Assembly (NCBI RefSeq): GCF_001543895.1
Contig: NZ_JYIJ01000008.1
Location: 1-55,538, forward strand
From: Carbonactinospora thermoautotrophica
GTDB lineage: Bacteria > Actinomycetota > Actinomycetes > Streptomycetales > Carbonactinosporaceae
Length of the DNA stretch: 55,538 bases
Direction: 5' to 3'
The translations under genes were made by a program, and so were the position numbers. Every line of letters starts with the position of its first letter. Position 1 is the first letter of the stretch. The notes under the pieces are model-generated. The model searched no databases. It had not been told where the DNA came from and saw nothing but the letters and a program-made list of their open reading frames with translations. Positions 23,538 through 53,293 of the stretch are shown piece by piece.

Positions 23538-23984
23538 ATGCCGATTGTTGCAGGTCAGGACCGGTCCAGGGAGGTGAAAGTCCTCGCCGGACAGGTCCGC
23601 GTGTTGGTCAACACGATCGAGACGGCGGCCGCAGCGGCCGCGAACCGGGCCCGCGAACGCGGCGCTGACGAGGCCCAGGTCGCCCGCGCGGCCGAGCAGG
23701 CGCGGGCCCGCGCAGTGCAGAGGATGTCTCGCGCGGTGGACCGGGGTGCGGCGTGCGCCGGCATGGACACCGAGGACTTCTTCCCGATCTCCGGGCACGC
23801 GACGCGGGCGCGGATGGAGGCCGCGGACGCGCTGGCCGTTTGCGAGGCGTGCCAGGTGCGGGCGCGGTGCCTGGCGCTGGCGGTGCTGACGCCGGCGGGC
23901 CGCTACGGGATCTGGGGCGGCCTGGTCGAGGGCGAGATCAGACAGCTGCGCGCCGCGCTGGCCGCCGAGGGGGTGGCGGGGTGA
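23538..23984 (+). CDS. WhiB-like iron-sulfur regulator
   Basis: 148 residues. The C-terminal half has the four cysteines of Wbl proteins (C73, C102, C105, C111; ...CEACQVRARC) and the signature GIWGG (about 124-128). AACAGMDTEDFFP matches the usual start of the domain. The N-terminal 70 residues are an Ala/Arg-rich helical extension not present in minimal WhiB proteins. Wbl proteins bind a [4Fe-4S] cluster and usually act with sigma factor region 4. As first gene of the spd-tra operon it may regulate transfer genes or host genes in response to redox state. GAAGGGAG lies upstream of the ATG. Confidence 0.88.
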   Translation: MPIVAGQDRSREVKVLAGQVRVLVNTIETAAAAAANRARERGADEAQVARAAEQARARAVQRMSRAVDRGAACAGMDTEDFFPISGHATRARMEAADALAVCEACQVRARCLALAVLTPAGRYGIWGGLVEGEIRQLRAALAAEGVAG

Positions 23985-24163
23985 CCGTGCTGCTCTTTGC
24001 GTCCGTCCTGGCCACGGCCGGATTCGTGTGGGAGCTGTACCGGCGGGACGGGCAGCGAGCGCACTGGCGAATCGAGCGCGACCAGGCCGGGCCGTGGTGC
24101 GACGGCAGCGGGGGCCGGTTCCCGGACTACCTACCCTCCTGGCTGACCGGAGGTGGCCGGTGA
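23981..24163 (+). CDS. Small single-pass membrane protein
   Basis: 60 residues from a GTG overlapping the WhiB stop (GTGA). Residues 1-17 (VTVLLFASVLATAGFVWEL) form one transmembrane helix; the rest is a charged cytoplasmic tail (YRRDGQRAHWRIERDQAGPWCDGSGG). It overlaps the next gene (GTGA at 24160-24163). It has no recognised family and belongs to the spread-type membrane genes by position. Confidence 0.65.
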   Translation: MTVLLFASVLATAGFVWELYRRDGQRAHWRIERDQAGPWCDGSGGRFPDYLPSWLTGGGR

Positions 24164-25857
24164 GCACGGTAGTCGAGAACTTGAAGACCGCGCTCGGGTA
24201 CGGCGCGGACCACCCCGGTTACGTGCTCGCCGCAGCGGCGGTCACGCTGCTCGCGCTGGTCGTCCTGGCGGTTCTCACCCGCCTTGTCCAGGCCCTCGGC
24301 AGGGTCGGCGCCCAGGCCGACACTCAGGTCGACCAGGAGGCCGGAGAGCAAGCCAGCGAGCAGGCCGAGGCCAGCGGAAAGACCCGCCTGGAGGACGTGG
24401 TCACGTTCGTGGCGGCGCTCGTGGCCACGAGCGTGTCGCTGGAGGGCATGTGGGAGGTCTTCAGCGACAAGCTGCCGAGCGTCCCCGTCTGGCTGCGGGT
24501 CGTGTTGTTCGGCTTCATCGAGCTGGCCATGCTCGCCAGTGCTCTGAGGGCTCGCCGCAACATCCGGGAGACCGAGGACGGTGACCCGGGGATCGACGCC
24601 GTCGCGGTGCGGGTGCTCACCGTGGTCACCGCGGTCTTGTCCTGCCTGGACGCCGACAGTCTCGTGGAGGGCCTGCTGCGGCTGGCCGCCCCGGCGATCG
24701 CCTCGTTCCTGTGGGAGCGGTTCCTGGCGATCGAGCGGCGCCGGGTCACCGGCCGGGAGCGGCGGATCCACTGGCGGATCAGCCTGGAACGGATCGCCGT
24801 GTGGTTGGGGTTGGCCGACGCCAGCGAGCGCACCGCGGGCGAGGTGGACGCGCACCGCCGGCTGACCCGGCTGGCGCGGGCCGCCAAGCGGGTGCGGACG
24901 CTGAACGAGGCGCGCGTGACGGGCCGGCGCCTGCGCAAGGCGCTGAAGGAGTTGGACCGGGCGATGGAAGACGCGGTCGAGTACGCCGGCCTGGCGACCG
25001 ACCCGACCCGCCAGCAGCAGCTGATGGACTACATCGGCGCGCTCTACGGCGCCGCTGAGCTGGCCGACCTGAACCCGCACGCGCCGTGGCGCCCGACCGA
25101 CCCGACCGTCGACCCGGGCGCGCTGCCCCGGCTGATCCCGGTTCCGGTGCCGGGCGGGTCGGTGTCGACCGACCCGACCCAGACTCCGACCGAGACAGAG
25201 TCAATCGCAGAGTCGACCCAGACCGGCACCCCGACCGGTGAGTCGACCGGGGACGGCGAGGCGGCCGGCCGGGGGTCGACCGTAGCGGCGGTCGGGTCGG
25301 TCGGGTCGACGGAGGAACCGGCGATTGAGCCGGTGCTGCCGTTGCTGCCCTACGCCTCGACCGTGGTGCGTCTGGACGGGTCGACCGAGACCCCGGCTGC
25401 GGAGGTGATCCCGTGGGACGGGTCGGGTCGACCGGCCGCGCGGGTCGAGGACGCAGGGTCGGCCGACCCGACCCAGAACCCGACCGAACCGGAGTCGACC
25501 GAAACTCCGACCGAGGGGTCGACCAACGCGGTGTCGGTCGAGGGGGTCACGGTCGAGCCGACCCTGACCGAGTCGATCCGACCGGTCGCGCGGGCGGTGG
25601 CGGCCGGGTCGACCCGGTCCCGGCGCGGTGTGCGGGCCCGGGTGCCCGTCCCGCCGTCGGCCCGGTCGCGGCGGATCCGGCGCAGCGATGAGGAGCTGCT
25701 GGCCGCGGCGCGGAAGCTCGCCGAGCAGCGGGGCGTGCCCGCGCACGAGCTGAGCGCGGAGGCGATCCGCATCGGGTTGCGGATCAAGGCCGGTAGGGCG
25801 CGGGAGCTGCGCGACCGGCTGCGCGCCGAGCCGGGTCAGGCGGGGGAGGCCGCTTGA
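24160..25857 (+). CDS. SpdB-like polytopic membrane protein with C-terminal DNA-binding-like domain
   Basis: 565 residues. An N-terminal helix (HPGYVLAAAAVTLLALVVLAVLTRLV) is followed by a cytoplasmic loop and two or three further membrane segments (WLRVVLFGFIELAMLASALRA; VAVRVLTVVTAVLSCLDADSLVEGLLRLAAPAIASFLWERF). A charged helical region, a roughly 170-residue Thr/Ser/Pro/Glu-rich linker and a C-terminal helix-turn-helix-like segment (DEELLAAARKLAEQRGVPAHELSAEAIRIGLRIKAGRARELRDRL) complete it. This matches the layout of SpdB/DUF2637-type proteins that spread plasmids between compartments of the recipient mycelium. The linker DNA is packed with GTCGACC motifs. Start GTG 24160 overlaps the upstream stop. 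Confidence 0.7.
   Translation: MSTVVENLKTALGYGADHPGYVLAAAAVTLLALVVLAVLTRLVQALGRVGAQADTQVDQEAGEQASEQAEASGKTRLEDVVTFVAALVATSVSLEGMWEVFSDKLPSVPVWLRVVLFGFIELAMLASALRARRNIRETEDGDPGIDAVAVRVLTVVTAVLSCLDADSLVEGLLRLAAPAIASFLWERFLAIERRRVTGRERRIHWRISLERIAVWLGLADASERTAGEVDAHRRLTRLARAAKRVRTLNEARVTGRRLRKALKELDRAMEDAVEYAGLATDPTRQQQLMDYIGALYGAAELADLNPHAPWRPTDPTVDPGALPRLIPVPVPGGSVSTDPTQTPTETESIAESTQTGTPTGESTGDGEAAGRGSTVAAVGSVGSTEEPAIEPVLPLLPYASTVVRLDGSTETPAAEVIPWDGSGRPAARVEDAGSADPTQNPTEPESTETPTEGSTNAVSVEGVTVEPTLTESIRPVARAVAAGSTRSRRGVRARVPVPPSARSRRIRRSDEELLAAARKLAEQRGVPAHELSAEAIRIGLRIKAGRARELRDRLRAEPGQAGEAA
25105..25615 (+). repeat. Cluster of GTCGACC/GGGTCGACC motifs inside the spdB-like gene
   Basis: About ten GTCGACC occurrences in 510 bp, many as GGGTCGACC or with neighbouring GACCCGACC. 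They encode Ser-Thr in the linker. Ser codons in this linker are almost all TCG, while AGC is common elsewhere in the same gene. A DNA-level function such as a TraB recognition cluster is possible. Confidence 0.5.
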
Positions 25858-26542: not shown

Positions 26543-27018
26543 CGTCGACCGAGCCCCCGGTGACTACGCAGAGTGAGGCCGCACACCGCACACCGCACTC
26601 GGGTGCGGGCGCGGAGCGCGCCGCCAACGCGTCCCCGCGCGCGCGTGCGCGCGTGAAGGACACCGAGCAGACCGCACTCACCCAGCGTGACCGCTGGTCC
26701 GGACTGCTAGGCCGGCTGGTGGGCTGGTTGGCGGGGGAGTTGACCCCGCCGACGGTGTGGGCGGACCCGCCGGCGAGCCTGCGGGAGATCTCCCGCTACG
26801 CCCACCACGGGGCCTGGACCACCGAGACCGGGGCCTGGCGCACGGCCGGGGTGTGGTGGTGCCGGCTGGTCGCCATCCCGGTGTCCACCCTCGCCTACTA
26901 CACCGCCTGGATCGCCCAGCGCCCCTCGCGGACCGTCGTGGTCACGGTCCTGTACGTCGTCGCCGCCCACACCACGCCCGGCCGCGTACTGCTGCCGTGG
27001 CCGGCCTGGCTGCCCTGA
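26539..27018 (+). CDS. Spd-like membrane protein
   Basis: 159 residues from a GTG overlapping the upstream stop. The first 50 residues are disordered. RYAHHGAWTTETGAWRTAGVWWCRLVAIPVSTLAYYTAWIAQRPSRTVVVTVLYVVAAHTTP holds two membrane helices (about 98-120 and 128-142). It sits between other small membrane genes of the spread cluster. No enzymatic motif is visible. Confidence 0.65.
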   Translation: MTSTEPPVTTQSEAAHRTPHSGAGAERAANASPRARARVKDTEQTALTQRDRWSGLLGRLVGWLAGELTPPTVWADPPASLREISRYAHHGAWTTETGAWRTAGVWWCRLVAIPVSTLAYYTAWIAQRPSRTVVVTVLYVVAAHTTPGRVLLPWPAWLP

Positions 27019-27050
27019 TCCACCACCACCCATCGGAGAGGAGTGAGGAG

Positions 27051-27497
27051 TTGTCTGGTCTAGCAAGCGCCGCGGCGGTCGCGGTCGTGTGCCTGTTCGT
27101 CGCCGGCGTGCTGCACAAGCGCCGCAAGGCACCCAAGACGGTCGGGGTGCTGATGCTGCTGGCCGGGTTCGGCGTCAGCGGTCTGGTGGGCCAGCTGCTG
27201 CACCGGCTGGGCGCGGCGTTCGGCCACGTCGCGGCGGTCGGCACCGCGCGGCTGTTCGGCGTCGCGGTCCCCGCCGCGGTGCTCATCGCCGCCGGGGTGT
27301 GGCTGTTCTTCGACCTGCACCCCAAGGAGGGCAAGCCGAGCAAGGCGCTGCCGGTGCTGGCGTTTGTGTTCCCGACCTTGTTGAGCGTGCTCGGCGGGGT
27401 CTACGTCGGCCTGGGTGGGCAGGTGCTCACCACGATCGGCACCGGGGTGAGCGAGCTGGCCACCACCGTGTTCACCACTACCGGCGGGGGGCGGTGA
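27051..27497 (+). CDS. Four-helix membrane protein of the spread cluster
   Basis: 148 residues from a TTG start close behind GAGGAGTGAGGAG. Four hydrophobic segments: LASAAAVAVVCLFVAGVL, VGVLMLLAGFGVSGLVGQLL, LFGVAVPAAVLIAAGVWLFF and LPVLAFVFPTLLSVLGGVYVGL. A Gly/Thr-rich C-terminus follows. It resembles small Spd integral membrane proteins in size and position. The next gene starts four bases after its stop. Confidence 0.65.
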   Translation: MSGLASAAAVAVVCLFVAGVLHKRRKAPKTVGVLMLLAGFGVSGLVGQLLHRLGAAFGHVAAVGTARLFGVAVPAAVLIAAGVWLFFDLHPKEGKPSKALPVLAFVFPTLLSVLGGVYVGLGGQVLTTIGTGVSELATTVFTTTGGGR

Positions 27498-27500
27498 CCG

Positions 27501-28421
27501 ATGGACCTGTTCACGCTGGTGGTCCTGATGTGGGTGGCCCGGCTCACCGCCACCGACATCGCGTACGCGGTGCGCGGCAAGACCCCACCCCGGGTGAAGC
27601 TGCGCATCGCGCGGATGCAGGCCGAAGCCGTCGCCGCTGGCCAGCGGCCGTGCCGCTACGGGGCGCGTGACTACTTCGTCGACCTGTGGCACGACGCCTG
27701 GGAGGACGCCCGCGCCGCCCGCGAGGAACGCCGCGCGAAGAAGCAGGCCGCGAAGCGGGCCGAGCTCGCCACGGTCACCGTCGAGCCGGCGAAGGCAGAC
27801 GAGCCGGCCAAGCCGGCCGAGGCGAAGACACCGGCCGAACCCCAGCCTGTCGACACCCCGGCTCCCGCGCCTGCCACAGCGAAGCCGCAAGCCGCTCCGG
27901 CCCCGCAGCGGGCCGGCGAGACGAAGCCGCCGGCCGACCCTGAGCCGGCGGCCGAGCCCGCGACCGAGCCGGCCAAGACGCCTGAGCCGGCTCCCACACC
28001 CCAACCCGCCGCTGTGGCGGGCCCTCAGACCCCGGCGACCGGGCAGAGCCCGGCGCCGGAGACGGCGCCGGCGGACGGGCCGCTGGCGACCGTGACCCCG
28101 ATCCACCGCATCAAGGAGGACACCGTGACCGTGATCAACGGCGAGACCCACACCCTGGCCGCGGCCAAGCAGTACGCGGCCGAGATGACCCGGGCCGCGG
28201 GCGCGGCGGTCACCTCGATCGAGCAGTCCATCGCCCACCTGCAGGCCCGGGAGGTCACCGGCCCGGTCCTGGACCGGCTGGCCGAGGCGCAGGACATCGC
28301 CAGCCAGCTGCAGGCGAAGTTCATCGAGGTGAGCAACGCCCTGTCCGCCCAGGACGTGGTGGCCGAGGCCTACGCCGCGGCCCCGCACGCCGGGGACAAG
28401 CAGTTCCTCACCCAGGAGTAA
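27501..28421 (+). CDS. Membrane-anchored Pro/Ala-rich coiled-coil protein
   Basis: 306 residues. A short hydrophobic N-terminus (MDLFTLVVLMWVARLTATDIAYAV) precedes a basic helix (ARDYFVDLWHDAWEDARAAREERRAKKQAAKRAEL), then a 130-residue Pro/Ala/Glu/Lys linker and a C-terminal helical domain (NGETHTLAAAKQYAAEMTRAAGAAVTSIEQSIAHLQAREVTGPVLDRLAEAQDIASQLQAKFIEVSNALSAQDVV). Such layouts are found next to traB in actinobacterial plasmids. The long linker could span a septal wall or tether DNA. Function is inferred only from context. Confidence 0.65.
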   Translation: MDLFTLVVLMWVARLTATDIAYAVRGKTPPRVKLRIARMQAEAVAAGQRPCRYGARDYFVDLWHDAWEDARAAREERRAKKQAAKRAELATVTVEPAKADEPAKPAEAKTPAEPQPVDTPAPAPATAKPQAAPAPQRAGETKPPADPEPAAEPATEPAKTPEPAPTPQPAAVAGPQTPATGQSPAPETAPADGPLATVTPIHRIKEDTVTVINGETHTLAAAKQYAAEMTRAAGAAVTSIEQSIAHLQAREVTGPVLDRLAEAQDIASQLQAKFIEVSNALSAQDVVAEAYAAAPHAGDKQFLTQE

Positions 28422-28493: not shown

Positions 28494-30521
28494 ATGGTCC
28501 ACCCGGCCCAGCCCGCTGACGAGCAGGCCCGCGAGGACCAGCCCGGCGCGGGCCAGCACACTCCCCCCGCCCCTGCCCCGGGTGGGAGGTGGGCCGCGCG
28601 GCGGCGGGGGCGGATGCGCCACCGGCTGCGCCGCCAGCTCATGCCGCACTACGCGGTGGGTGGGCTGCTGCTGGCCGGGGAGGCCGCGCACCTGGCCGGG
28701 CTCGCGACCGGAGACCCGGCAGCGGTGGCCGGGATGGTGGGCGCGTCGACGGCCGGGGGCGCGCTGGTGGCCGGTGCGATGCTGCGCGAGCGCATCCCCG
28801 CCGACCGGAAGCGGTGGGCGGCCGCCTGCGCGGCGGGTGGGTGCGCGTGGCTGGCCACGGCCGCCGGCGCCGGCGTCACCTGGGACACCGCCGCGCTGCT
28901 GCTCGCCGGCGGCTACGCCCTGGCGTTGCCGCACTGGCGCCGACACCGCATCCCCCACCCGGGCGCGGTGCCGCTCGCCGATCCCGCAGCGGTCGAGGAC
29001 GCCACGTCGATCCCGCAGTTGTGGCGGGCCAACGTGGGCGCCCCGGACGGGCCGCTGCCCGGCTCGTACCTGACCGACCAGGCCGAGATCCCGTACGGGG
29101 AGGCGTACACCGCACAGCTGCGCCCGGGCCGCCAAGACATCGGCAGTGTGCTCGCCCGCCTGAACCTGATCGCCAGCGGGCTGCTGCTGACCGGCCCCGA
29201 GGACCTGGTGGTGGACCGGCACCCGTCCGGGGACTCCTCCAAGGTGCTGCTCAAGGTGCTCACGCACTCCCCGATCCGGGAAACCGTCTGGTTCACCGGC
29301 CCGGACTACGACCCGGAAACCGGCACCATCGGGCTGGGCCCCTTCGCGGACGGGCAGGACGAGGCGCGCTGGCGGCTGTACAGCGAGGATTCCATGTGGG
29401 GCGGGGTAATCATCGGCGGCCCCGGTTCGGGCAAGTCGATGCTCAGCGAGAACATCGCGATCTCCGCCGCCGCCACCGGGTGCACGGTCATCCTCTACGG
29501 GGATCCGCAAGAGGGCGCCTCCTCCCCGGCGCTGGCCCGCTACGCCCACTGGCCCGCGCTGGGGACCGACCAGATCCTGGACATGCTGCGCGCGCTGGAG
29601 CGCGCCTGCCAGTGGCGGGCCAAGGAGAACGCCGCCTACGGGCTGCGTGGCTTCACGCCCAGCCTCGCACGCCCGGGCATCCTCGTGATCATCGACGAGT
29701 GCCACCGGGTGTTCAGGATCGAAGAGGCGCGTGAGCTGGCCGACTGGCTCGCCCGGGAGGGCCGCAAGGTCGGCATCGCCTTGCTGGTCCTGTCCCAGTA
29801 CGCGGGCCTGGAGACCTTCGGCGGCAAGGAATCGCTGCGCGCCAGCATCATGGCCGGCAACACCGTGGTGCTGCGCACCGCGAGCAAGACCACCCGCAAC
29901 ATCCTGGCCGGCCTAGAGGGCATCGACCCCGCCACCCTGCCGGCGATCCCCGGCTACGCCTACCAGGTCGACACCACCGGCAAGGGCCGCACCGCCCCGT
30001 TCCGCAGCCGCCGCGTCAAGGACCCCGAAGGCTGGCTGGCCCGCACCCCGCAGGCCGACCTGGACGCGCTGGTGGTCAACGCCCTCGGCCCCGTCTACAC
30101 CGAGCGCGGCGCCCGCGCCGAGGCCGCCCTGGAGACGCTGCGCGCCGAGGTCGAGGCCCTCAAGGCCGGCGCGATCACCCTGTCCGCCACCGGGCCCACG
30201 AGACCTCCCGCACCCGCCCGTGACCACGCCCGCCCGGCCGGCTCCAGCTCTAGCGCCGGGCTGGGCGCGGTCGTCGCCTTCCCCACCTTCCCCGCACCGG
30301 CCGGGCGCGAGCGCGACGGCGCGCAGGTCACCCAGGCGCAGGCCGCCGTGCTCGCGGCCATCGCCGCCGGGCACACCACCCCGGCCGCGATCCGCGCGGC
30401 CACCGGGTGGGGCGAGACCTACGTGCGCCGGCTGCTCGGCGAACTGCTCGACAAAGGCCTGATCACCAAGCCCGCGTCCGGCCGATACGCGCTCGTCGAG
30501 CAGGACCAGGCCACCGGCTGA
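28494..30521 (+). CDS. traB: FtsK/SpoIIIE-type conjugal DNA translocase (TraB-like)
   Basis: 675 residues with GAGAGGAGGAG upstream. Membrane helices lie at about 50-150 (HYAVGGLLLAGEAAHLAGL; AACAAGGCAWLATAAGAGVTW; AALLLAGGYALAL). The motor has Walker A GGPGSGKS (about 308-315) and Walker B ILVIIDECH (about 396-404), followed by LLVLSQYAGLETFGG, and the C-terminus ends in a winged helix (TQAQAAVLAAIAAGHTTPAAIRAATGWGETYVRRLLGELLDKGLITK) like the gamma domain that reads recognition sequences in TraB. TraB of mycelial actinomycetes forms a hexameric pore moving double-stranded plasmid DNA without a relaxase. The surrounding WhiB/spd genes and the divergent GntR repressor support this. The plasmid also has a relaxase-T4SS set, so a second role is possible. 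Confidence 0.8.
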   Translation: MVHPAQPADEQAREDQPGAGQHTPPAPAPGGRWAARRRGRMRHRLRRQLMPHYAVGGLLLAGEAAHLAGLATGDPAAVAGMVGASTAGGALVAGAMLRERIPADRKRWAAACAAGGCAWLATAAGAGVTWDTAALLLAGGYALALPHWRRHRIPHPGAVPLADPAAVEDATSIPQLWRANVGAPDGPLPGSYLTDQAEIPYGEAYTAQLRPGRQDIGSVLARLNLIASGLLLTGPEDLVVDRHPSGDSSKVLLKVLTHSPIRETVWFTGPDYDPETGTIGLGPFADGQDEARWRLYSEDSMWGGVIIGGPGSGKSMLSENIAISAAATGCTVILYGDPQEGASSPALARYAHWPALGTDQILDMLRALERACQWRAKENAAYGLRGFTPSLARPGILVIIDECHRVFRIEEARELADWLAREGRKVGIALLVLSQYAGLETFGGKESLRASIMAGNTVVLRTASKTTRNILAGLEGIDPATLPAIPGYAYQVDTTGKGRTAPFRSRRVKDPEGWLARTPQADLDALVVNALGPVYTERGARAEAALETLRAEVEALKAGAITLSATGPTRPPAPARDHARPAGSSSSAGLGAVVAFPTFPAPAGRERDGAQVTQAQAAVLAAIAAGHTTPAAIRAATGWGETYVRRLLGELLDKGLITKPASGRYALVEQDQATG

Positions 30522-30543
30522 GCCGGCGTTGCCCGCGGCTCCC

Positions 30544-32232: not shown

Positions 32233-32284
32233 GCTGGAACTCCCCACCCGTTCACGTATGACCCGGAAGGAGACAGCACCCATC

Positions 32285-40180: not shown

Positions 40181-40292
40181 GATCCGCGGTTGCTCGAGGA
40201 GCGGCGGAGCGAGGCCCCGGACCGATTGGAGACCTTTCGTTGCCGTCACCGGATAGTCCCGTCGGATGCTCAGCCTGGCGGAGCAAGATATT

Positions 40293-44893: not shown

Positions 44894-45355
44894 CTACCCC
44901 TCTCCTTCAGATGAGGGGTCAGAGAACGCGGGGCCGAGCCACAGGTTCGGGTCGGATTCGGCGACGGGCAGCGGGTCGAGTTCGGTGTGCCGGTCGGGTT
45001 TGCAGGCGGCGAACACGCCGGTGTCGCGGTTCATCAGGGCGTGCAGGTGCGGGTCGGCGTGGTGCAGCCACCAGGCCGACATCGTGCCCTCGATCCGGGC
45101 CTTCTCCCACTCCTGCCACAGCGCGTTCAACCGGGAGACCGCTTCGGGGTGCTTCCACCATTGCGCGCACCAGGTGAGCGTGCCGCCGAGCCGGCGGCGG
45201 ATCAGCGGGGCCAGGTGGCCGCGCACCCAGGCGTCGAGGTTCGGGTACGCCAACTCCGCCCCGGTGCCGTGGCCACCGGTCTCGGCTCCGTCCAGCGGCT
45301 CGCCGGGCACCCAGCCGTCGTCGGCCAGCAGGTCGTCAGGCATCGGCTCAGGCAT
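44894..45355 (-). CDS. DUF4913 protein
   Basis: 153 residues; the ATG at 45355 overlaps the end of the VirD4 gene. The core HLAPLIRRRLGGTLTWCAQWWKHPEAVSRLNALWQEWEKARIEGTMSAWWLHHADPHLHALM matches the DUF4913 pattern (WC-x2-WW-x-H-P-E-A ... WW-x3-ADPHL). DUF4913 genes regularly accompany conjugation clusters in actinobacteria; their role is unknown. The start was set by the coupling with the upstream gene. Confidence 0.8.
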   Translation of the reverse strand: MPEPMPDDLLADDGWVPGEPLDGAETGGHGTGAELAYPNLDAWVRGHLAPLIRRRLGGTLTWCAQWWKHPEAVSRLNALWQEWEKARIEGTMSAWWLHHADPHLHALMNRDTGVFAACKPDRHTELDPLPVAESDPNLWLGPAFSDPSSEGEG

Positions 45356-47084
45356 CGACCGCCTCGACAGGCTCACCCGGGGGGCTGTAGCGCGCGAGGG
45401 ACTCCTCCACCTCGGCGGCGCGTGGCCCCCGGGTCCACGGCTCGGTCTCGATCAGGATGGGCCGGGTGCCGGAGGCGAGCACGATCGCCCGCCCCCGGGG
45501 GAGCGCGGCGAGGTCGGCGAGGTCGAGGATCCGCTCGGGCCGGGTGGACACGGTCGTCGAGCGCGACCGGCCGGCGCCGCGCTGCACGCTGATCGAGGTG
45601 GTTTCCGGCTCGAACTCACCCAGCACCCGCGACAGGTCCTCCAAAAACGCGGCGTCGAGCTGGCCGCCGCCGAAGACCCGGATGTTCGCAGCGTCGCGCA
45701 GCTTGCGCATCCCGTGGTCGCCCCACACCTCCACGCCCTGGGACCAGGACTGCAGGATGGTCATGAGGATGATGCCGCGGCTGCCGTAGTGGCTGTAGCG
45801 GTCGGGCAGGTCCCGCCACCGGACCCCGTTGGCCGCCTCGTCCAGCACGCCGAGGAACGGCACGGGCAGCCGGCCGCCGGGTGAGCGGGTCGACAGCTCC
45901 TCGGCGGCCTCGATGACGGCGACGTTCAGCGCGGCCACCACGGCCGCGCCCGAGCGGCCCTCCATGGACAGCGAGTACAGGGTGTCGGTGCCGCGCACGA
46001 ACTCCTCGGGCCGAAACTCCGGGGTGCGCCGGCCGCCGGGGGTGATCCACCGGGTGACCGCCGGGTTGACCAGCCAGGACACGGCCTTCTCGGCGGTGCC
46101 GTAGATGCCGTCACGCTGCTTGTCCGCGTAGTTGATGACGCCTTGCACGGCGTGGGCGGGCATGTGGTGGCCGGTGCGGCGCAGCACGTCGACCGGGGTG
46201 GCGTCGGTCGGGTCGCTCAGCCACTCGTGGACGATGGTGATCGGCTCACCGGCCGCGGCGGCGGCCAGCAGCATGTAGGCGAGCAGCTGCTCCCCCTTGG
46301 GGTCGAAGTAGGCGTCCTGCTTGGCGCCGACGGCGCGGGAGAAGTCAGCGAAGATCGCGGCGAGCCGCATTGCCTTGTCCACGTCGGTCACGTACGACAG
46401 GGGGTTCCACCACCAGGTGGGGTCCTCCCCGGCGATTTGGTGCGGGTCGAACACCCACACAGTGCCTGCGCGGTCGCGGATCAGCCGCGTGGCGTCCACC
46501 ACGTCGCGCTTGTTGGAGGTGACCAGCAGGCAGCCCGGGGCGGCCAGGATCGCCGGGATCGCGCGGGAGGTGGTCTTACCGGTGCGGGTGCCCCAGATGT
46601 CGAGGTGCATGTCCTCCCAGGAGCCGTAGATGCGCTGCCGGCTGGGCAGGGCCCGCCCGATCGGCACGCCGGGGCTGGTGGTGGGCGCGCCCAGGCGGCG
46701 CGCGGTCGCGGTCACGCCCGCTTCGGTCAGGTGGGCGATGTCGCGGGGGTCGGCCAGGTGGCGGGCGGCGGCGTCCACCGAGACCCGGGAGCGGCGCAGG
46801 CGCGCCACGATCCGCCACACCCCCGCCGCGAGCGCCGCCGCGACGAGCAGCTCGGCGGCGGCAACCACGGTGGCGGTTGGGCCCGGCCAGGCGCGTTGGC
46901 CGACGGCGAGCTGGATCGCGAGGGTGAACGGGTTGGCGGGCGGGGCCGGTGCGTGGCCGAGGGCGGCGGCGACCGCCACCGCGACCCACACGCCGGCGAC
47001 GACGAGGAGGAGGAGCCCCAGGCCGGCCAGCGCCAGGTACGGGGTGATGTCGGAGGGGCCACGGCTGCGGCGGGTGACGCTCAT
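45348..47084 (-). CDS. VirD4/TraG-type coupling protein
   Basis: 578 residues from ATG 47084. Two N-terminal membrane segments (YLALAGLGLLLLVVAGVWVAVAVAAAL; VVAAAELLVAAALAAGVWRI) precede the motor: Walker A WGTRTGKTTSRA (about 163-174), Walker B-like FLGVLDEAANGVRWRDLP (about 410-425) and TraM-recognition-like ILMTILQSWSQGVEVWG. The protein links the relaxosome to the T4SS channel and pumps the transferred strand. It overlaps VirB4 (four bases at 47081-47084) and DUF4913. The frame is open back to 48605, but that part is antisense-like noise over the virB4 gene in another frame. Confidence 0.88.
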   Translation of the reverse strand: MSVTRRSRGPSDITPYLALAGLGLLLLVVAGVWVAVAVAAALGHAPAPPANPFTLAIQLAVGQRAWPGPTATVVAAAELLVAAALAAGVWRIVARLRRSRVSVDAAARHLADPRDIAHLTEAGVTATARRLGAPTTSPGVPIGRALPSRQRIYGSWEDMHLDIWGTRTGKTTSRAIPAILAAPGCLLVTSNKRDVVDATRLIRDRAGTVWVFDPHQIAGEDPTWWWNPLSYVTDVDKAMRLAAIFADFSRAVGAKQDAYFDPKGEQLLAYMLLAAAAAGEPITIVHEWLSDPTDATPVDVLRRTGHHMPAHAVQGVINYADKQRDGIYGTAEKAVSWLVNPAVTRWITPGGRRTPEFRPEEFVRGTDTLYSLSMEGRSGAAVVAALNVAVIEAAEELSTRSPGGRLPVPFLGVLDEAANGVRWRDLPDRYSHYGSRGIILMTILQSWSQGVEVWGDHGMRKLRDAANIRVFGGGQLDAAFLEDLSRVLGEFEPETTSISVQRGAGRSRSTTVSTRPERILDLADLAALPRGRAIVLASGTRPILIETEPWTRGPRAAEVEESLARYSPPGEPVEAVDA

Positions 47085-48586
47085 GCCCTGACTCCCGCCG
47101 CCGTGGATCCCGCCGGTGCGGCTCCCTCTTGTGCCGCCGCGTGGCGCCACCGCTTGTTGGTGTCGTTGACGTCGCGCTCGGCGGCGGTGAGCTCGACCTT
47201 GACGGGGATGCCGGGCCGGCTGCCGACCTTGATCAGGAACTTGCCGCGGCCGGGGGGCTCGGCCTCGCGGTTGAGCATCGGGTCCCAGCTCGGGGGCGTG
47301 GACCAGTCGACGATCAGCCGCCGCTCCTTGTGGGAGAGGCGCACCACCTGGGTCAGCGACGCCATCTCCGCCTCGGGCAACCCACCGCACACGATCATTC
47401 CTGCGCGTTCGGCGAAGCCCTTGGCCTTGTGCCGGTCGGCCACCTCGGCCACGGCCAGCAGGTCGTCCATGGTGTGGGTGACCATGACCTGGCCGATGCC
47501 GCGCTGGCGGTTGAGCCGGGTGAGCGCGTCGACCCGGTCGACCAGGCCACGGCCGGCGCGCAGCACCCGCCACAGCTCGTCCAGGACGACGAAGAAGTGC
47601 CGCTGTGGGGCCAGGCCGGCGTCGGCGAGTGCGTGGGCGGCCTCGATCGCGCCGAACCCGTCCGACCAGCACGCCAGCAACGCGGCCGCGGCCAGGTCGG
47701 TGTCGGCCTCGTCGATGCCGGAGATGTCGATGCACACCCCGCCGGGGGAGTCCAGCCGGATGGGGGTGGTGGTGTGTCGGGCGAATGTCTCCCCCATCGG
47801 CCCATCCAACAAACCAAACAACGACCGGTGCAGCGGGTCGACCGCCGCCCGGTACCGCTCGTCGTTCCCGCGGTCCAGGGTGACCCGGCGCACCTCCTCG
47901 GGGCCTTCGTCCAGGACGCGGATCAGGTCGGGCAGGATCGGCACGCCGGCATGGCGCTCGTCCAGCACCCGCAAGGCGGCGGACAGGATCGTGCGTTCGT
48001 GGTCGCTGGGCGGCTGCCCGCCGCGCAGGATCGTCACCAGGGCGGCCAGCATGTTCAGCCGGCGGCCCTGCGCTTGGGCGAGCAGCCGGTCGCGGTCGGC
48101 GCCGGACAGCCGGGCTGCGGCCGCCGCGGTCTCCCCGGGGTCCAAGACGTTGAGGCTGCCCAGGCCCCGCCCCAGCTTGACGACCTGGCCGCCCATCGCG
48201 GCGATGAGGTCGACGTAGTCCGGCTTGAGGTCGCCCAGGATCAGCGGGTACACCCCGTACCCGGCCAGTCCCAGGACCAGGCGGCGCACGAACGTGGACT
48301 TGCCCAGGCCTGGGCGGCCGAGCACCAGCGCGGACGGATTGTGGATCAACTGGGCGCGTTGGAACCAGGAGATCGGGTCGCAGCACACCGTGGTGCCGTT
48401 GTCCAGGTGCCGGCCCACGGGCACCCCGATCATCGGCGTGCCCGAACCGACCCCGAACGGCCACAACCCGCACACCTGCACCGTGGTGCCGCGCCACTCC
48501 GGTGGCGCCTCCACATAAGAGGCGCGGCCGCCGCCGCGGCCGGGGTAGCCGCGCGGGCCCGGCCGCCGAGCAGATGCGTTGCGCAT
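47081..48586 (-). CDS. VirB4-like T4SS ATPase
   Basis: 501 residues, ATG 48586. Walker A LGRPGLGKSTF (about 88-98), DLKPDYVDLIAAMGGQVVKLGRG, and Walker B HFFVVLDELWRVLRAG (about 325-340) with GIGQVMVTHTMDDL following are typical of VirB4/TraC-type hexameric ATPases that drive T4SS assembly. It lacks the N-terminal VirB4 domain; the SCO6880-like protein just upstream may supply that part as a separate chain, as in other actinobacterial systems. It overlaps VirD4 by ATGA. Confidence 0.85.
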   Translation of the reverse strand: MRNASARRPGPRGYPGRGGGRASYVEAPPEWRGTTVQVCGLWPFGVGSGTPMIGVPVGRHLDNGTTVCCDPISWFQRAQLIHNPSALVLGRPGLGKSTFVRRLVLGLAGYGVYPLILGDLKPDYVDLIAAMGGQVVKLGRGLGSLNVLDPGETAAAAARLSGADRDRLLAQAQGRRLNMLAALVTILRGGQPPSDHERTILSAALRVLDERHAGVPILPDLIRVLDEGPEEVRRVTLDRGNDERYRAAVDPLHRSLFGLLDGPMGETFARHTTTPIRLDSPGGVCIDISGIDEADTDLAAAALLACWSDGFGAIEAAHALADAGLAPQRHFFVVLDELWRVLRAGRGLVDRVDALTRLNRQRGIGQVMVTHTMDDLLAVAEVADRHKAKGFAERAGMIVCGGLPEAEMASLTQVVRLSHKERRLIVDWSTPPSWDPMLNREAEPPGRGKFLIKVGSRPGIPVKVELTAAERDVNDTNKRWRHAAAQEGAAPAGSTAAGVRA

Positions 48587-48601: not shown

Positions 48602-50089
48602 TCACATGGCGTCGCGGACCACCTGCGGGACCCGCAGGTGGTCGGGCAACACGATGCCGATCGGCAGCGCCGCGGCGAACGCGGAGGCCTGCGCGCGGTA
48701 CATGCGCCGCAGCTGCACGCGGGCCGGCGGGGCGAGCACGTCGACCGCAGCCGCGGCCGCGGGCAGGTCGTCGGGGCTGCGGACGGTGGCGGTGACCAGC
48801 ATCGCGAACCGGACCAGGCCGGCGCCGGTCGCCTCCTCCCGCTCGGTTTGGCGGGCGGCCTCGATCGCAACGGTGTCGCGGGCGGAGGCGTGGGCGACCG
48901 CGGCCCGGAACACCGCGTCGCGGCGGTCACGCTGGACGATGCGGGCGGCGGTGGCCGGGTCGTGCGGCCGGTACAGCAGCGTGACCCGCTTGCGGGCGAT
49001 GTCGCGGTGCGGCTGCAACAGGCCGGTGAGCACCGAGGAGTACACCTCCCCGCGCGGCGCCTCCGACATGCCCCAGGTGATCGAGGCGGCGCCGTCGTGC
49101 CGGTAGTGGTCGACGTACTCCTCGTGCGACACCGGGCCGGCGTCCGCCCAGGTCAGCCCGGACCCGCCGTGGGCGCGGGCCTGCTCGATGAGCACCTGGG
49201 CGTTCGGGTCGTAGGCGATCCGCACCGCCTCGGCGAGCTGCTCGTGCGTCATCGGCCGGGCCTCGCCCGCGCCGGTCATGCCCAGCCCGGCGGACAGGCC
49301 AGGCAGCCGGGTGCCGATCTCTCGGGCCATCTCCTCGGGGCTGCGCCGCCGCGCACCGGGGCGCGGGGCGGCGGAGTAGGTGAGCGCGATCCGGGCCGAG
49401 ACCTGGGCCGAGCCGGTGGGGTAGGTGTCGACGATGTCGGTGAGCACCTGGCGGGCCAGCTCCGGCGCGGTGGGGGACAGCTGCGCGGACACCTCGCGCT
49501 CCAGGCGGATGCCGAGGTCTGGGGCGGTCTCGATCGTCACCGCCGCCTGGACGATCCCCGGCTCGTACGCCAGCGAGGCCAGCCACTGGCCCCAGTAGGC
49601 GACCCAGATGTCCACCTGCTCGGGGTCGACCAGGGCGGCGCCGTCCGGCGCGCACTCCAGCACCGCGGTGTAGTGGCCGGTGGACGGCACGACGATCATC
49701 CCGAAGGGCCGGCCGTAGGAGTCCTCGGCGTCGACGACGTAGCTGGCGGCCGCCAGCCCGGGCAGGCGGAACGTGCCGGCCGGGCCCAGCGGTCCGCCCC
49801 GGTACAGGTGCTGTCCGGCCGAGCGGCCATACCACCAGGCGATGCGGGCGGTGAGGCCTTGCAGCCCGTTGCGGCCGTGCCGGTCGCGGATGCCCAACGG
49901 GACCAAGACCAGCACCACCAGGCCGGCCACCAGCAGACCCGCCCACAGGGCAAACATCATCGTGATCGCCACGGCGACCATGCCGGTGAGCAGGATCAGC
50001 GTGCCGACCAGGCCCAGCCCGAGGATGCCCGGCGAGGTCGGCTTGCGCCAGTTGCCGTAGGTGCGCTCCACGCGCTCACCAGCTGCCAT
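48602..50089 (-). CDS. SCO6880-family membrane protein (PrgI/VirB4-N-like)
   Basis: 495 residues from ATG 50089 with AGGAG nine bases upstream. Two helices near residues 20-65 (LGLGLVGTLILLTGMVAVAITMMFALWAGLLVAGLVVLVLVPLGI) are followed by a large soluble region (FGMIVVPSTGHYTAVLECAPDGAALVDPEQVDIWVAYWGQWLASLAYEPGIVQAAVTIETAP...). This matches the SCO6880 family: a PrgI-like membrane unit joined to a VirB4 N-terminal-like domain. It probably complexes with the ATPase encoded next. The gene overlaps the end of the VirB6-like gene by 14 bases. Confidence 0.8.
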   Translation of the reverse strand: MAAGERVERTYGNWRKPTSPGILGLGLVGTLILLTGMVAVAITMMFALWAGLLVAGLVVLVLVPLGIRDRHGRNGLQGLTARIAWWYGRSAGQHLYRGGPLGPAGTFRLPGLAAASYVVDAEDSYGRPFGMIVVPSTGHYTAVLECAPDGAALVDPEQVDIWVAYWGQWLASLAYEPGIVQAAVTIETAPDLGIRLEREVSAQLSPTAPELARQVLTDIVDTYPTGSAQVSARIALTYSAAPRPGARRRSPEEMAREIGTRLPGLSAGLGMTGAGEARPMTHEQLAEAVRIAYDPNAQVLIEQARAHGGSGLTWADAGPVSHEEYVDHYRHDGAASITWGMSEAPRGEVYSSVLTGLLQPHRDIARKRVTLLYRPHDPATAARIVQRDRRDAVFRAAVAHASARDTVAIEAARQTEREEATGAGLVRFAMLVTATVRSPDDLPAAAAAVDVLAPPARVQLRRMYRAQASAFAAALPIGIVLPDHLRVPQVVRDAM

Positions 50090-51371
50090 CCGGACCACTC
50101 CTCCCCTCTCCCGTAGCGCTGCCCGCGGCCCCCTGGGCGGTCGTTCTCACCGCCTTGCCGGCCTCCAGGCCGGCCGCAGCGACCGCGCCGGCCGGACCGG
50201 CGGCCTTCGCCGCGCCCGCCGCCCCACCCGCACCGGTACCGGCACCGGGGGGCGCCCCGGTGCCCGCCGCAGCGGCACCGTGCGCGCCACCGGACCCGCC
50301 GGCCGCGGGAGCGCCGCCCTGTGGTCCGGGCTGTGGTCCGGGCTGTGGTCCGGGCTGTGGTCCGCCGCCGGTCAGCCGCGCGCCGGCCGGTGCGCGGGTC
50401 GGTGCCGGCCGCGGCGGCGGGGCGGCCGCGTAGCCGGCCCCGCCGAGGGCGGGCACCATGCGGGCCCCCATCGCCACCGCGCCGCTGGCGAGCATCCCGG
50501 CCGCTCCACCGCTTCCACCGCGGGTGGTCGCCGCCACCAGCGGGGTGAAGAACCGCATCAGCGCTGGCAGCGCGAGCCCCGCGAGGATGATCATCACGAT
50601 GCCGGAGAGTTGGGCGAGCGCGGAGTTCGGCGTGCCCAACGCCGTGAACGAGAACGCGTAGATCGTCGCCGCGACCGGTTTGTACAGCACGAACGCGATC
50701 AGCCAGCCGAGCATCCGTTTGAACCAGGCCCGGCCCTCGGCGGTGGACGAGATCGCGGCCCCCAGCTGCAAGGAGGCGGTCAGCAGGCCCAGCATCGCGA
50801 CGCGGGCCAGCATGAGCACGATCTGGAACAGGGAGCTGATGATCGCCAAGATCGCGATGATGATCATCAGGCCGGGTGTGAGGGTGACCGTCTGCAGGGA
50901 CGCCATCCGCGTCACCGCACCGCCGAAATCCGCGCTACCCAGCGCGCGGGTAATGATCCACTCTGAGTAGGCGTCGCCGGCCTGCGTTGCCAGTGCCACG
51001 CCGGTGACCGAGGCCCCGCTGACCACCACCAGCGTCAGCAGGCCCTCGGCGGCTCTCCGGGCCGGCTCTCCCCGTTGCTGCCAGGCCATCTGGCCGGCGG
51101 CGATGAGCAACCCGAGCACGGCCAGGAAGGCGACGTACCAGCGGGTGTGCTCCAGCAGGAAGGCGACCGGGCCGGACTCCGACAGCGTGGGGGTTTTGGT
51201 GGTGGTCCAGAACGACACCAGGATGCCGAGGATCCGCACCTCAGCGTCCTGAAACGCCCGGGCCATCTGGTCGATGACGCTGCCGGCCAGCGCTCCGGCC
51301 GCTGCGCCGCCGGCGTCGCAGGCCATCCCGATGACTGGGACGCTGCACACGCCTCCGGGGCTGTCCGGCAT
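50076..51371 (-). CDS. VirB6/TrbL-like polytopic T4SS protein
   Basis: 431 residues. About six membrane helices between residues 75 and 275 (WYVAFLAVLGLLIAAGQMAW; LLTLVVVSGASVTGVALATQA; GLMIIIAILAIISSLFQIVLMLARVAMLGLLTASLQLGAAI; MLGWLIAFVLYKPVAATIYAFSF; LSGIVMIILAGLALPALMRFF). The C-terminal 150 residues are Gly/Ala/Pro-rich and include GPQ-PGPQ repeats. VirB6-like proteins form the inner-membrane channel. Start ATG overlaps the stop of the upstream gene (ATGA at 51371). Confidence 0.8.
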   Translation of the reverse strand: MPDSPGGVCSVPVIGMACDAGGAAAGALAGSVIDQMARAFQDAEVRILGILVSFWTTTKTPTLSESGPVAFLLEHTRWYVAFLAVLGLLIAAGQMAWQQRGEPARRAAEGLLTLVVVSGASVTGVALATQAGDAYSEWIITRALGSADFGGAVTRMASLQTVTLTPGLMIIIAILAIISSLFQIVLMLARVAMLGLLTASLQLGAAISSTAEGRAWFKRMLGWLIAFVLYKPVAATIYAFSFTALGTPNSALAQLSGIVMIILAGLALPALMRFFTPLVAATTRGGSGGAAGMLASGAVAMGARMVPALGGAGYAAAPPPRPAPTRAPAGARLTGGGPQPGPQPGPQPGPQGGAPAAGGSGGAHGAAAAGTGAPPGAGTGAGGAAGAAKAAGPAGAVAAAGLEAGKAVRTTAQGAAGSATGEGRSGPDGSW

Positions 51372-52099
51372 CAGACCCCTCCCCAGACGACGAAGCCGGC
51401 CAGGCTCGGCACGTGCTGGGCGCTGGGGCTGACCGAGCCGTCCGGCTGCAGCTGAAGCTTCCAGTCACCGTCGGACCACACCACGGTGGCGGTGATGACC
51501 TGCAGGGACCCGGTGGGGAACCGGCTGACCAGCTGGATGACGGCCACCTGTGGGGTGTAGGTGACGAACTTGAAGCCGGCCACCTGGCCGTACTGGCCGG
51601 GCTGGTCGGAGTTGGCCGTCACCTGGGCCCGCAGCCGTACGTAGGTGTCGCGGCCGGGCCCGGGCATCACCTGCTGTGCGACCACGGTCCGCCAGTCGTC
51701 CGCAACCAGGTAGCGGATGCCGATCTGCCAGGCGGCCAGCAGCGCCCCGGTGGGGGTGTGCGCGTAGCAGCGGGCGACATCACCGTCGACGACCGCCGGC
51801 CCGGCAGTCGGGGAGGACGGCACGGCCACGGTGTGGAACACCGACCAGGTGACGCCGGCCGGCGCCGTGGTCGGGATGGTCTGGTCGGTGTCCGGCAGCC
51901 GGCAGTCACCCGTCCCCGCCGCCTCCGTGGCCGCGGGAGGGGGGGCCGGGCTGGTGGGCGTCGTCGAGGGCTGCCCGCCTCGCCCGGTGATGACCAGGAC
52001 CACGGCGAGCACCAGGACCAGCGCCACGAAGCCGGCGGCTAAGACGAACCCGGGACGGCGGAAGGGACTGGTCTGCTGGGTGGCGTCGCGGTTACTCAC
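51371..52099 (-). CDS. VirB8/TcpC-like bitopic T4SS protein
   Basis: 242 residues from a GTG at 52099 (VSNRDATQQTSPFRRP). One membrane helix (GFVLAAGFVALVLVLAVVLVIT, about 18-40) is followed by a Pro/Thr linker and an extracellular domain (WSVFHTVAVPSSPTAGPAVVDGDVARCYAHTPTGALLAAWQIGIRYL... WKLQLQPDGSVSPSAQHVPSLAGFVVWGGV) with the NTF2-like feel of VirB8/TcpC. Longer upstream frame is rejected as it reads as Arg/Gly noise. It is a core channel component by position and topology. Confidence 0.7.
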   Translation of the reverse strand: MSNRDATQQTSPFRRPGFVLAAGFVALVLVLAVVLVITGRGGQPSTTPTSPAPPPAATEAAGTGDCRLPDTDQTIPTTAPAGVTWSVFHTVAVPSSPTAGPAVVDGDVARCYAHTPTGALLAAWQIGIRYLVADDWRTVVAQQVMPGPGRDTYVRLRAQVTANSDQPGQYGQVAGFKFVTYTPQVAVIQLVSRFPTGSLQVITATVVWSDGDWKLQLQPDGSVSPSAQHVPSLAGFVVWGGV

Positions 52100-52110: not shown

Positions 52111-52413
52111 TCAGATGAGCGCGCCGACGATGCCTGAGGCGGCCCCGACGAGGATGCACGCGGACGCCACCCAGGCCAGGCCTGCCGCGTGCTGGCCCCC
52201 CTCGCCGCGGTGGTGGAGGACCGCCATGCGGCCGGCGACGATGAGCACGCCGACCACGCACAGGCCGGACACGACCCAGGCCACCCAGCGCAACAGGGTG
52301 AGCAGCTTGTCCGCGCCGGGCGGCGGTTCGCCGGCCCCGGGGTCCGGCACGGCGGCCAGCCAGGTTGCGACGTGGTGCGCGCCGTCCCCGGCCGCCATCA
52401 GCACCTCATGCAT
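52111..52413 (-). CDS. VirB2/TrbC-like small membrane protein
   Basis: 100 residues with two membrane helices (LLRWVAWVVSGLCVVGVLIVAGRMAV and GLAWVASACILVGAASGIVGALI) separated by a short polar loop (LHHRGEGGQHAA), the topology of VirB2/TrbC pilin-type subunits. No clear cleavable signal peptide. It is the second gene of the minus-strand T4SS operon and overlaps the preceding gene by eight bases. Confidence 0.7.
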   Translation of the reverse strand: MHEVLMAAGDGAHHVATWLAAVPDPGAGEPPPGADKLLTLLRWVAWVVSGLCVVGVLIVAGRMAVLHHRGEGGQHAAGLAWVASACILVGAASGIVGALI

Positions 52414-53065
52414 AGCTCCCTCCTCGGTCGTAAGCGATGTGATGGAGATCGGTTGCCAGGCGCGTGTACTCAGCCGGCAACGCGACGCGTGACGGGGGCT
52501 CTCCCAGGCGCAGCGCCTCCACCCACGGCAGCAGCCAGGTGCGGGGCACGCCGCCGGAGATCAGCCGTACCAGGTCGCGCAGGGGGCGCGGCAGGCGGCC
52601 GGGCGCGTCCGCGATGAGCACCAGGCCCAGCAGATGGATGCCGGGCGGCAGCGTGCCGGAGGCCCACTGTCGGGCGGCGGCCTGGGCGGCCCGCAGCCCC
52701 GCGGCGTGGGTGCGCGCGACCAGTACGACCCGGGCGGATCCCGGCGGGGGCGGTGCTGGCCAGGCCCGCGCGGCGTCGACGCCGCCGGGGATCGTGGCGG
52801 CGAGCGTGCTCACCCCGGCTCCCCCGTGGCAGCCGACCCACCACCACCACGGCCCGGTGTAGGAGGGCAGGGGGTTGAGCAGTCGTATCGGGAGCTGGCC
52901 CTCGGTCGGCGGGGGGACCGCGCCCGGCTGAGGACGGTCCGGGCCCGTGGTCGGCGCCGGCACGTAGGGCCGATCGGCGGGGGCCGGACTGGTCGCAGGG
53001 GCCAATCGCGTCGTCCAGGGGTTCGACACGTCCGCCACTGACACCCCTCGTGACGGAGAAATCAC
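52406..53065 (-). CDS. DUF6668-like degenerate P-loop protein
   Basis: Up to 219 residues; a GTG at 53065 gives the longest frame, but a GTG at 53038 has a better GAGGGG site. A Pro-rich N-terminus leads into WWWWVGCHGGAGVSTLAATIPGG (about 72-95), which resembles a ParA/MinD-like P-loop without the Lys, and a Rossmann-like order continues (ARVVLVARTHAAGLRAAQAAARQW; IHLLGLVLIADAPGRLP). Proteins like this start T4SS operons in actinobacteria. Possibly a regulatory or positioning ATPase relative. It is the first gene of the minus-strand T4SS operon. Confidence 0.65.
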   Translation of the reverse strand: MISPSRGVSVADVSNPWTTRLAPATSPAPADRPYVPAPTTGPDRPQPGAVPPPTEGQLPIRLLNPLPSYTGPWWWWVGCHGGAGVSTLAATIPGGVDAARAWPAPPPPGSARVVLVARTHAAGLRAAQAAARQWASGTLPPGIHLLGLVLIADAPGRLPRPLRDLVRLISGGVPRTWLLPWVEALRLGEPPSRVALPAEYTRLATDLHHIAYDRGGSYA

Positions 53066-53293
53066 TTAGCGTGTAAGCGAAATTGCGCAAAGATACTACG
53101 ACGTCGATCCCGGAACGACGTGTTTACGCCGGCCGCAGCCGGCTCGTGTCATGGGGGATCAGGGGGATTGCGTGCGTCGAGGACGTGTCTCCTGGTGCGG
53201 GGGGCGACCCGGAGGCGGTGATTCTCATCGCCGGGCCATGTCGCACCCCGTGCGGCGAGGTCCCGTGCCCGCACTGGCCGGGGAGTGGTCCTG
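53066..53293. promoter_or_regulatory. Divergent promoter region of the two T4SS operons
   Basis: About 230 bp between the minus-strand T4SS operon and the plus-strand hydrolase operon. The segment 53066-53115 is locally AT-rich (TTGCGCAA, TACTACG, AGCGTGTAAGC) and likely holds both promoters, but no clear -35/-10 pair could be assigned. Confidence 0.4.

Follow-up and report, generated by a model that had tools for sequence, protein, structure and literature searches.

The window analysed here is a stretch of 55,538 nucleotides from Carbonactinospora thermoautotrophica (NZ_JYIJ01000008.1; the whole of contig C8 of a 5.13 Mb genome in 19 contigs), which is probably a circular plasmid of ~55,028 bp and carries two sets of genes for DNA transfer. 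The first (module A) comprises a KorA-like repressor, a WhiB-type regulator, Spd-like membrane proteins and a TraB-like ATPase of the FtsK type, while the second (module B) comprises a candidate origin of transfer (oriT), MobC, a relaxase and a type IV secretion system (T4SS). We hold with moderate confidence that these are two separate, apparently intact and separately evolved DNA-transfer modules, each with its own proposed mode of action. The presence of two distinct conjugation machines on one plasmid had been put forward in an earlier note on the sequence (the original prediction), and all of the parts named there were found, with open frames. Its limits of 23538 and 53293 were too narrow on both sides: the repressor lies just outside them, at 22288-23073, and the T4SS set runs beyond 53293, through the genes at 53285-54274 and 54250-54888.

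Each module alone is of an already known kind. Actinobacterial conjugation is usually sorted into FtsK/TraB and relaxase/T4SS systems. Two surveys count them as separate element classes (PMC3218068, PMC9513070); two further papers concern a large plasmid in which a TraB homologue was not identified (PMC9195940) and TraB-like genes on four predicted plasmids (PMC8190616). No paper on both modules in one plasmid was found in the open-access literature, a search outside which most subscription papers lie, so that a prior description is possible.

Composition of the two modules

Module A begins at position 22288 with a GntR-UTRA gene on the minus strand, followed rightward by the genes for WhiB, a protein with four hydrophobic segments, small proteins, a protein with four transmembrane (TM) segments and a 675-residue ATPase (Table 1). 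The repressor aligns with KorA of pIJ101 (28.7% identity, E 1.7e-10). For the ATPase, the FtsK/TraB-like label was upheld by family comparison and less so by single-sequence search, in which Pfam FtsK_SpoIIIE reached 13.4 bits against a cut-off of 24. When a family profile (a 15-member alignment of relatives) was compared with pIJ101 Tra, hhalign gave a probability of 98.1% (E 1.3e-13) over 422 columns, which run from residue 174 of the window protein through the motor into the C-terminal winged helix; the winged helix also matched the C-terminus of pIJ101 Tra by BLAST (32%, E 1.4e-4). Walker A (GGPGSGKS, at residue 308) and Walker B motifs were both found, and FtsK/SpoIIIE-type chains were at the top of a PDB profile search (E 3.2e-10), with EccC below them. 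The family does not align with the plasmid's own VirD4 (0.5%, E 0.12), and aligns with VirB4 over 59 columns only, around Walker A (36%, E 3.8e-4). Judged from these profiles, the ATPase is a relative of Tra/TraB.

The two Spd-like proteins were named from their anatomy, with four hydrophobic segments each. The protein at 24028-25857 occupies the position of annotated DUF2637 proteins in records L033 and L038; it has no Pfam DUF2637 match, and no open-access paper on DUF2637 in connection with plasmid transfer was found. On Pseudonocardia pBCI2-2, the protein at 26757-27497 has a short match (E 1.8e-4) two genes ahead of the TraB relative. Downstream of traB, the PycTM-domain protein may be a membrane protein of the transfer operon rather than a defence effector, because C9, another contig of this genome, keeps it at 83% identity and, on a Streptomyces alfalfae plasmid, a gene annotated as "Pycsar system effector family" stands second behind the TraB relative. 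As a whole, module A resembles pIJ101, which likewise has an FtsK-like Tra with a C-terminal winged helix, a KorA-related GntR repressor and Spd-type membrane proteins. However, pIJ101 is a plasmid of 8.8 kb with nine annotated features, among them no relaxase or T4SS, whereas in the window WhiB belongs to the operon and the plasmid, of 55 kb, also encodes a T4SS.

Module B is divided between the strands. An intergenic element, MobC, the relaxase and a coiled-coil-like protein are on the plus strand (40280-43930), whereas DUF4913, VirD4, VirB4, SCO6880, VirB6-like, VirB8-like, VirB2-like and DUF6668 proteins are encoded on the minus strand (53065-44894), and the module is completed by a divergent SLT-NlpC hydrolase gene and that of a further conserved protein (53285-54888). 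The recurrence of each component was counted in 33 loci from a genome scan with SCO6880 (matches at E 1e-5, flanks of up to 10 kb), several of which are cut by contig ends. MobC, the HUH relaxase, VirD4, SCO6880 and the SLT-NlpC protein all exceeded curated cut-offs. The VirB4 and VirB2-like labels of the original prediction stay under such cut-offs and are kept, the latter tentatively, for their recurrence; VirB6 and, again tentatively, the VirB8-like protein are named from membrane or fold features together with recurrence. For the VirB8-like protein, an AlphaFold2 model (pLDDT 84.6) retrieved mainly NTF2-like proteins in Foldseek, with VirB8-like OrfG (6zgn) at rank 29 and no match with E <= 0.001. 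MobC probably starts at a GTG at 40409. The relaxase has an HIH motif at residue 134 and an N-terminal tyrosine in AYL at residue 18, and the unusual P-loop of VirD4 is also found in its close relatives. Taken together, these features place the T4SS in the SCO6880 kind, and it appears complete.

The closest relatives of module B are on Streptomyces plasmids, the nearest relative of the whole module being on one of 58.9 kb with identical gene order. In NBC_01431 unnamed2 (NZ_CP109498) and in plasmids of S. canus and S. europaeiscabiei, the orders VirB4-VirD4-DUF4913 and large protein-relaxase-MobC recur, with a large hypothetical protein in the place of the window's coiled-coil-like protein and, in some of the three, an unnamed small protein in the place of MobC; DUF6668 and SCO6880 lie upstream in the two that were read that far. 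Unlike the window, no TraB-like protein was found on these Streptomyces T4SS plasmids.

The same three plasmids share the core of the candidate oriT. In the window and in 3/3 compared plasmids, GCACACTG-CGTGTG, a C/G hairpin and TCGCT-CGCTGGGA stand upstream of mobC, or of the gene in its place, and the relaxase. In the window, NBC_01431 and S. europaeiscabiei a GAGCAAG box stands before the core, together with a palindrome whose sequence differs while its symmetry is kept; these three make up the final alignment, S. canus having been matched by BLAST and omitted for one extra core base. The pairwise scores were 38.1, 34.4 and 32.5 bits, as against 27.0, 23.3 and 25.1 for the best of 60 shuffles each, a rough control in which two-base blocks are displaced. 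The core is visible only pairwise; a DNA search of plasmids with the entire region gave no matches. It is not shared by C9. On this evidence, the region at 40280-40394 can be regarded as a good candidate oriT.

Table 1. Coordinates of module A, module B and the candidate replication gene in the window (loci, the 33 SCO6880 loci; ORF, open reading frame).
Feature	Position	Strand	Evidence
Candidate replication protein (rep)	19779..21107	-	94.7% amino acid identity on C9; no family match; function proposed from position only
GntR-UTRA repressor, KorA-like	22288..23073	-	PF00392 77.6 bits, PF07702 71.3 bits, both over Pfam cut-off
WhiB-type regulator	23538..23984	+	PF02467 52.9 bits (cut-off 23.6)
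Spd-like membrane protein	24028..25857	+	four hydrophobic segments (hydropathy); start uncertain
Spd-like 4-TM membrane protein	26757..27497	+	hydropathy; 96% identical on C9
Protein between Spd and TraB	27501..28421	+	one N-terminal hydrophobic segment; 67% on C9
TraB-like ATPase of the FtsK type, winged helix at the C-terminus	28494..30521	+	675 residues; hhalign to pIJ101 Tra
PycTM-domain two-TM protein downstream of traB	32258..33130	+	PF18967 49.7 bits on longer ORF from 31526; start proposed from reading frame
Candidate oriT	40280..40394	+	GAGCAAG box; palindrome 40294-40310; GCACACTGGCGTGTG 40346-40360; C/G hairpin 40364-40380; TCGCTCCGCTGGGA 40381-40394
MobC/NikA-like relaxosome protein	40409..40819	+	PF21983 45 bits (cut-off 27), PF05713 28.2 bits (23.2), longer ORF from 40316
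HUH relaxase (MobA/VirD2-like)	40816..42282	+	PF03432 48.3 bits (cut-off 24.6)
Coiled-coil-like protein after relaxase	42311..43930	+	2/33 loci
DUF4913 protein, T4SS-associated	44894..45376	-	PF16259 106.1 bits; 20/33 loci
VirD4 coupling protein	45348..47084	-	PF12696 96.5 bits (cut-off 22), PF02534 65.6 bits (20.1); 25/33 loci
VirB4-like ATPase	47081..48586	-	below curated cut-offs; 33/33 loci
SCO6880-family T4SS protein	48602..50098	-	NF042935 568 bits (cut-off 60)
VirB6-like multi-TM protein	50076..51371	-	five hydrophobic segments; 28/33 loci
VirB8-like protein	51371..52099	-	one TM helix and predicted NTF2-like domain; 20/33 loci
VirB2/pilin-like two-TM protein	52111..52413	-	PF18895 14.9 bits (below cut-off 26.6); 25/33 loci
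DUF6668 protein, T4SS-associated	52406..53065	-	PF20373 48.9 bits; 28/33 loci
SLT-NlpC/P60 cell-wall hydrolase (VirB1-like)	53285..54274	+	PF00877 81.1 bits, PF01464 47 bits, over cut-off; 24/33 loci
Conserved T4SS-associated protein	54250..54888	+	27/33 loci; lipoprotein-like start by eye

Separate occurrence and recurrent pairing of the modules

The modules occur apart on other replicons. By tblastn, 104 plasmid records have a TraB-like protein and 565 a relative of VirD4; from the first 60 of each, 22 records (17 for TraB, 5 for VirD4) were picked by hand and checked for two proteins alone, SCO6880 and TraB. SCO6880 was absent from 15 of the 17 TraB records and present in two, while all five VirD4 records had SCO6880 and none had TraB; one of the TraB records (W13) matched by tblastn, fell below the threshold of the later TraB test and is still counted. 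Ten further stretches with TraB, from ten genomes, contain no match to VirD4, VirB4, SCO6880, VirB6, MobC or relaxase at E 1e-6, some of them being partial (9,000 of 11,136 bases in G056, 88,000 of 88,864 in G031, and 80 kb of chromosome-sized contigs in G154 and G143). In Streptomyces sp. NBC_01136, a TraB relative and SCO6880 are encoded on two separate plasmids. A first scan of genome contigs with TraB, in which 51 stretches fitted a pattern, gave no relatives; a class-wide profile search gave matches in 56 of 118 genomes, the weaker of which lie mostly over the motor region and resemble FtsK/EccC background. Strong relatives, by our own cut of 100 bits, are present in 8 of 117 other genomes, and their surroundings were examined in six (G127, G154, G009, G113, G136 and G143; the other two are G066 and G081). 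In some of the examined plasmid stretches the TraB relatives are adjoined by GntR, and in part of these by WhiB and DUF2637 genes. Because the modules occur apart, the window has its own VirD4, and TraB does not align with it, TraB probably does not belong to the window's T4SS as a regular component, and this candidate role, which the original prediction had named as one possible refutation, was rejected.

The pairing is not unique: it is found on four replicons, namely C8, C9 and two public plasmids. Pseudonocardia pBCI2-2 (NZ_CP012183), a circle of 118.6 kb, resembles the window in having a TraB-like ATPase with WhiB neighbours together with a relaxase, a VirD4-like protein and SCO6880, but differs from it in size and gene order, in the MobF class of the relaxase and in an SsgA-family gene near TraB. 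Such a gene also lies near TraB on the plasmid unnamed1 of Streptosporangium sp. NBC_01495 (NZ_CP109431), where one circle carries both the TraB-like ATPase (183081-185105) and, at 253218-263863, a T4SS cluster of the SCO6880 type; unlike the window, this plasmid has 358 kb and is typed non-mobilizable, with no annotated relaxase in the 49 of 358 kb that were read.

The second contig of the same genome, C9 (100,465 bp, with no terminal overlap found), carries relatives of both modules, which differ in how well they are conserved. In and around module A, the identities to the window are 94.7% for the candidate replication protein, 67-96% for the Spd-like proteins, 85.5% for TraB and 99.5-100% for the next protein. 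The T4SS of C9 is mostly only 29-40% identical: MobC 36%, relaxase 30%, VirD4 40%, VirB4 40%, SCO6880 38%, VirB6 29% and VirB2 36%, with SLT at 52%. DUF4913 also has a relative on C9, and no matches to VirB8, DUF6668 and the 54250-54888 protein were found there at E 1e-4. Along the shared block the identity varies between 76 and 100% in 300-base steps, which suggests recombination between C8 and C9. The ratio of nonsynonymous to synonymous substitution rates (dN/dS) between the two contigs is below 1 in eight of nine genes or parts, the ninth being identical (candidate rep 0.33, TraB 0.45, 4-TM protein 0.22, maximum 0.84), with some uncertainty of starts and ratios where frames overlap (26488-27018 with 26757-27497, and traB with 30407-31063).

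Two local features of this block may be added. From 30423 to 31023, where traB ends and the following gene lies, the two contigs agree in 100% of about 600 bases; measured in steps of 300 bases, the identity is 88% ahead of this stretch and 97% behind it. The GntR and WhiB genes (22288-23984, corresponding to 8848-10400 of C9) diverge, at 35% and 41% identity, although the candidate rep on one side of them and the Spd/TraB genes on the other are conserved; it looks as though two co-resident replicons with nearly the same pump were regulated differently.

Proposed modes of action and competing readings

In module A, the GntR repressor would control the operon that makes the FtsK-type pump, the winged helix of TraB would bind double-stranded plasmid DNA, and TraB and the Spd proteins would move this DNA between hyphae and/or across cross-walls. 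In module B, MobC and the relaxase would nick oriT, VirD4 would pass the strand to the SCO6880/VirB channel and the cell-wall hydrolase would open the envelope, moving a relaxase-led single strand to another cell. If both modules are expressed, as is presumed here, module A could serve spread and retention inside the mycelium and module B transfer between cells. SsgA-family genes are a sign of a mycelial, sporulating lineage, and the genome has one. This division of labour is plausible by analogy, because of the mycelial host that this gene suggests and of the published properties of TraB and Spd: in one source, TraB can be viewed as a coupling protein that needs no other T4SS subunit, and transfer within the mycelium depends on Spd proteins (PMC12857230), while another describes binding of TraB to 8-bp repeats and spreading as a possible stability function (PMC4170104). 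A plasmid with both modules, together with a companion contig that has a close TraB core and another T4SS, is a natural system for separating primary transfer from intramycelial spread. If labour is indeed divided, typing by relaxase or T4SS only would overlook how such plasmids persist in the colony, since TraB-like records are typed as non-mobilizable (70/104) or mobilizable (34/104) and none as conjugative.

The assignment of module A to spreading could be taken further. Its function might be mainly maintenance, TraB crossing septa and refilling plasmid-free compartments while all transfer between colonies is left to the T4SS, which we consider possible but would not bet on. In keeping with it, C8 and C9 share TraB/Spd and the candidate rep as their conserved block but differ in the T4SS; the SsgA-family septation and sporulation genes near the TraB relatives of the two other dual plasmids and the stability function mentioned in PMC4170104 also agree with it. 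However, the rep label is a candidate only, a ParA-like partition gene is also on the plasmid, and TraB mediates conjugative transfer in Streptomyces plasmids according to PMC12857230 and PMC4170104. Similarly tentative is the proposal of a class of dual-mode plasmids in mycelial actinobacteria, with a replication-linked TraB/Spd set as internal spreader and retainer and an exchangeable relaxase-T4SS for cell-to-cell transfer; C8 and C9 would then have different T4SSs plugged into one core, with vertical and horizontal movement performed by different machines.

A plain mosaic, formed by fusion or recombination of a TraB plasmid with a T4SS plasmid and leaving redundant systems, each sufficient for conjugation and with no split of labour, is judged rather unlikely. 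It would account for the different histories of the modules on C8 and C9, for the occurrence of each module alone elsewhere, and for the different relaxase classes with which the pairing arose (MOBF on pBCI2-2, HUH MobA/VirD2-like here). Yet the frames of both modules are open and the shared genes have dN/dS values below 1, and the pairing on four replicons fits a mild selection for keeping both, though this is inseparable from chance here.

Several observations weigh against the favoured interpretation of two separate, intact modules. On the side of module A, the Spd-like proteins have no family match; no convincing cluster of clt/TRS repeats was found by 8-mer clustering on C8 and C9 or with candidate motifs; and, unlike pIJ101 Tra with its one TM segment, TraB has none that exceeds the hydropathy threshold. 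On the side of module B, the VirB8, VirB2 and VirB6 assignments are each weak taken singly, and relatives of the relaxase and MobC are present in just 1 of the 33 T4SS neighbourhoods; such T4SS clusters therefore often lack a nearby relaxase of the window type. As to the separation of the modules, TraB was found in none of the 33 T4SS neighbourhoods, but their 10-kb flanks would miss a spacing like that of the window (~18 kb from traB to SCO6880). Two of the ten further TraB stretches hold relatives of T4SS-associated proteins (SLT ~3 kb before TraB in G154, DUF4913 and NlpC in G136), and CP091383, one of the 15 TraB records without SCO6880, has an annotated TraM-recognition (VirD4-like) protein. 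The statement of the original prediction that TraB systems normally work without a relaxase proved to be no rule for large plasmids, in view of the mobilizable third of the TraB-like records, for example pSV2, which lacks SCO6880 and is typed MOBF; TraB records may thus pair with other T4SS kinds or relaxases. Finally, FtsK-like T4SS coupling proteins exist, such as TcpA of C. perfringens (PMC12857230), and the PDB search placed a "DNA translocase coupling protein" (6o1w, E 1.6e-8) close behind FtsK. These last two points would favour a TcpA-like alternative coupling protein or T4SS accessory over a self-sufficient pump, but such a role is very improbable, as TcpA-type proteins replace VirD4 whereas a canonical VirD4 is present here, FtsK-type chains score higher, and the ATPase occurs without SCO6880 in most plasmid records and all ten stretches, some of its relatives standing with GntR, WhiB and DUF2637 genes.

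Replicon and neighbouring genes

The probable circular form of C8 is deduced from the exact 510-bp overlap common to both contig ends. Since this overlap contains a direct repeat (114 bases or more, with a spacing of 396 bases), a break at the repeat is a less likely alternative. Inactivation of one system, the other refutation considered in the original prediction, was rejected: no lesion of this kind was seen in either module, the 40 window proteins checked have no internal stops, and the VirD4 P-loop variant is common to close relatives. An actinomycete integrative and conjugative element was likewise rejected; a tyrosine recombinase is encoded at 1540-2694, but the window has no tRNA genes, and a search of the genome for att-like identity of 900-3560 gave nothing convincing.

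An inverted repeat links the surroundings of the candidate rep with those of the relaxase: 40063-40196 matches 21482-21617 over 139 alignment columns with 84% identity, a duplication of rep-adjacent sequence upstream of the relaxase module, of which C9 has one strong copy, near rep. A fusion point or an origin-like site may lie here. Between modules A and B lies a Gabija-like pair on the minus strand (36064-39520), with relatives of GajA (OLD-type TOPRIM ATPase, 132 bits) and GajB (UvrD helicase, 168.5 bits). Farther to the left, on the plus strand, are a look-alike of a Phd/RelB antitoxin and RelE toxin pair (579-1330, recognised by eye only) and two small proteins with weak, below cut-off WXG100-like matches (3178-4314). 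The latter are upstream of a gene for a DarB-like antirestriction protein (4769-15928, plus strand) of 3719 residues with methyltransferase and helicase parts (phrog_10089, 1499 bits), of which C9 encodes a relative at ~40-55% identity.

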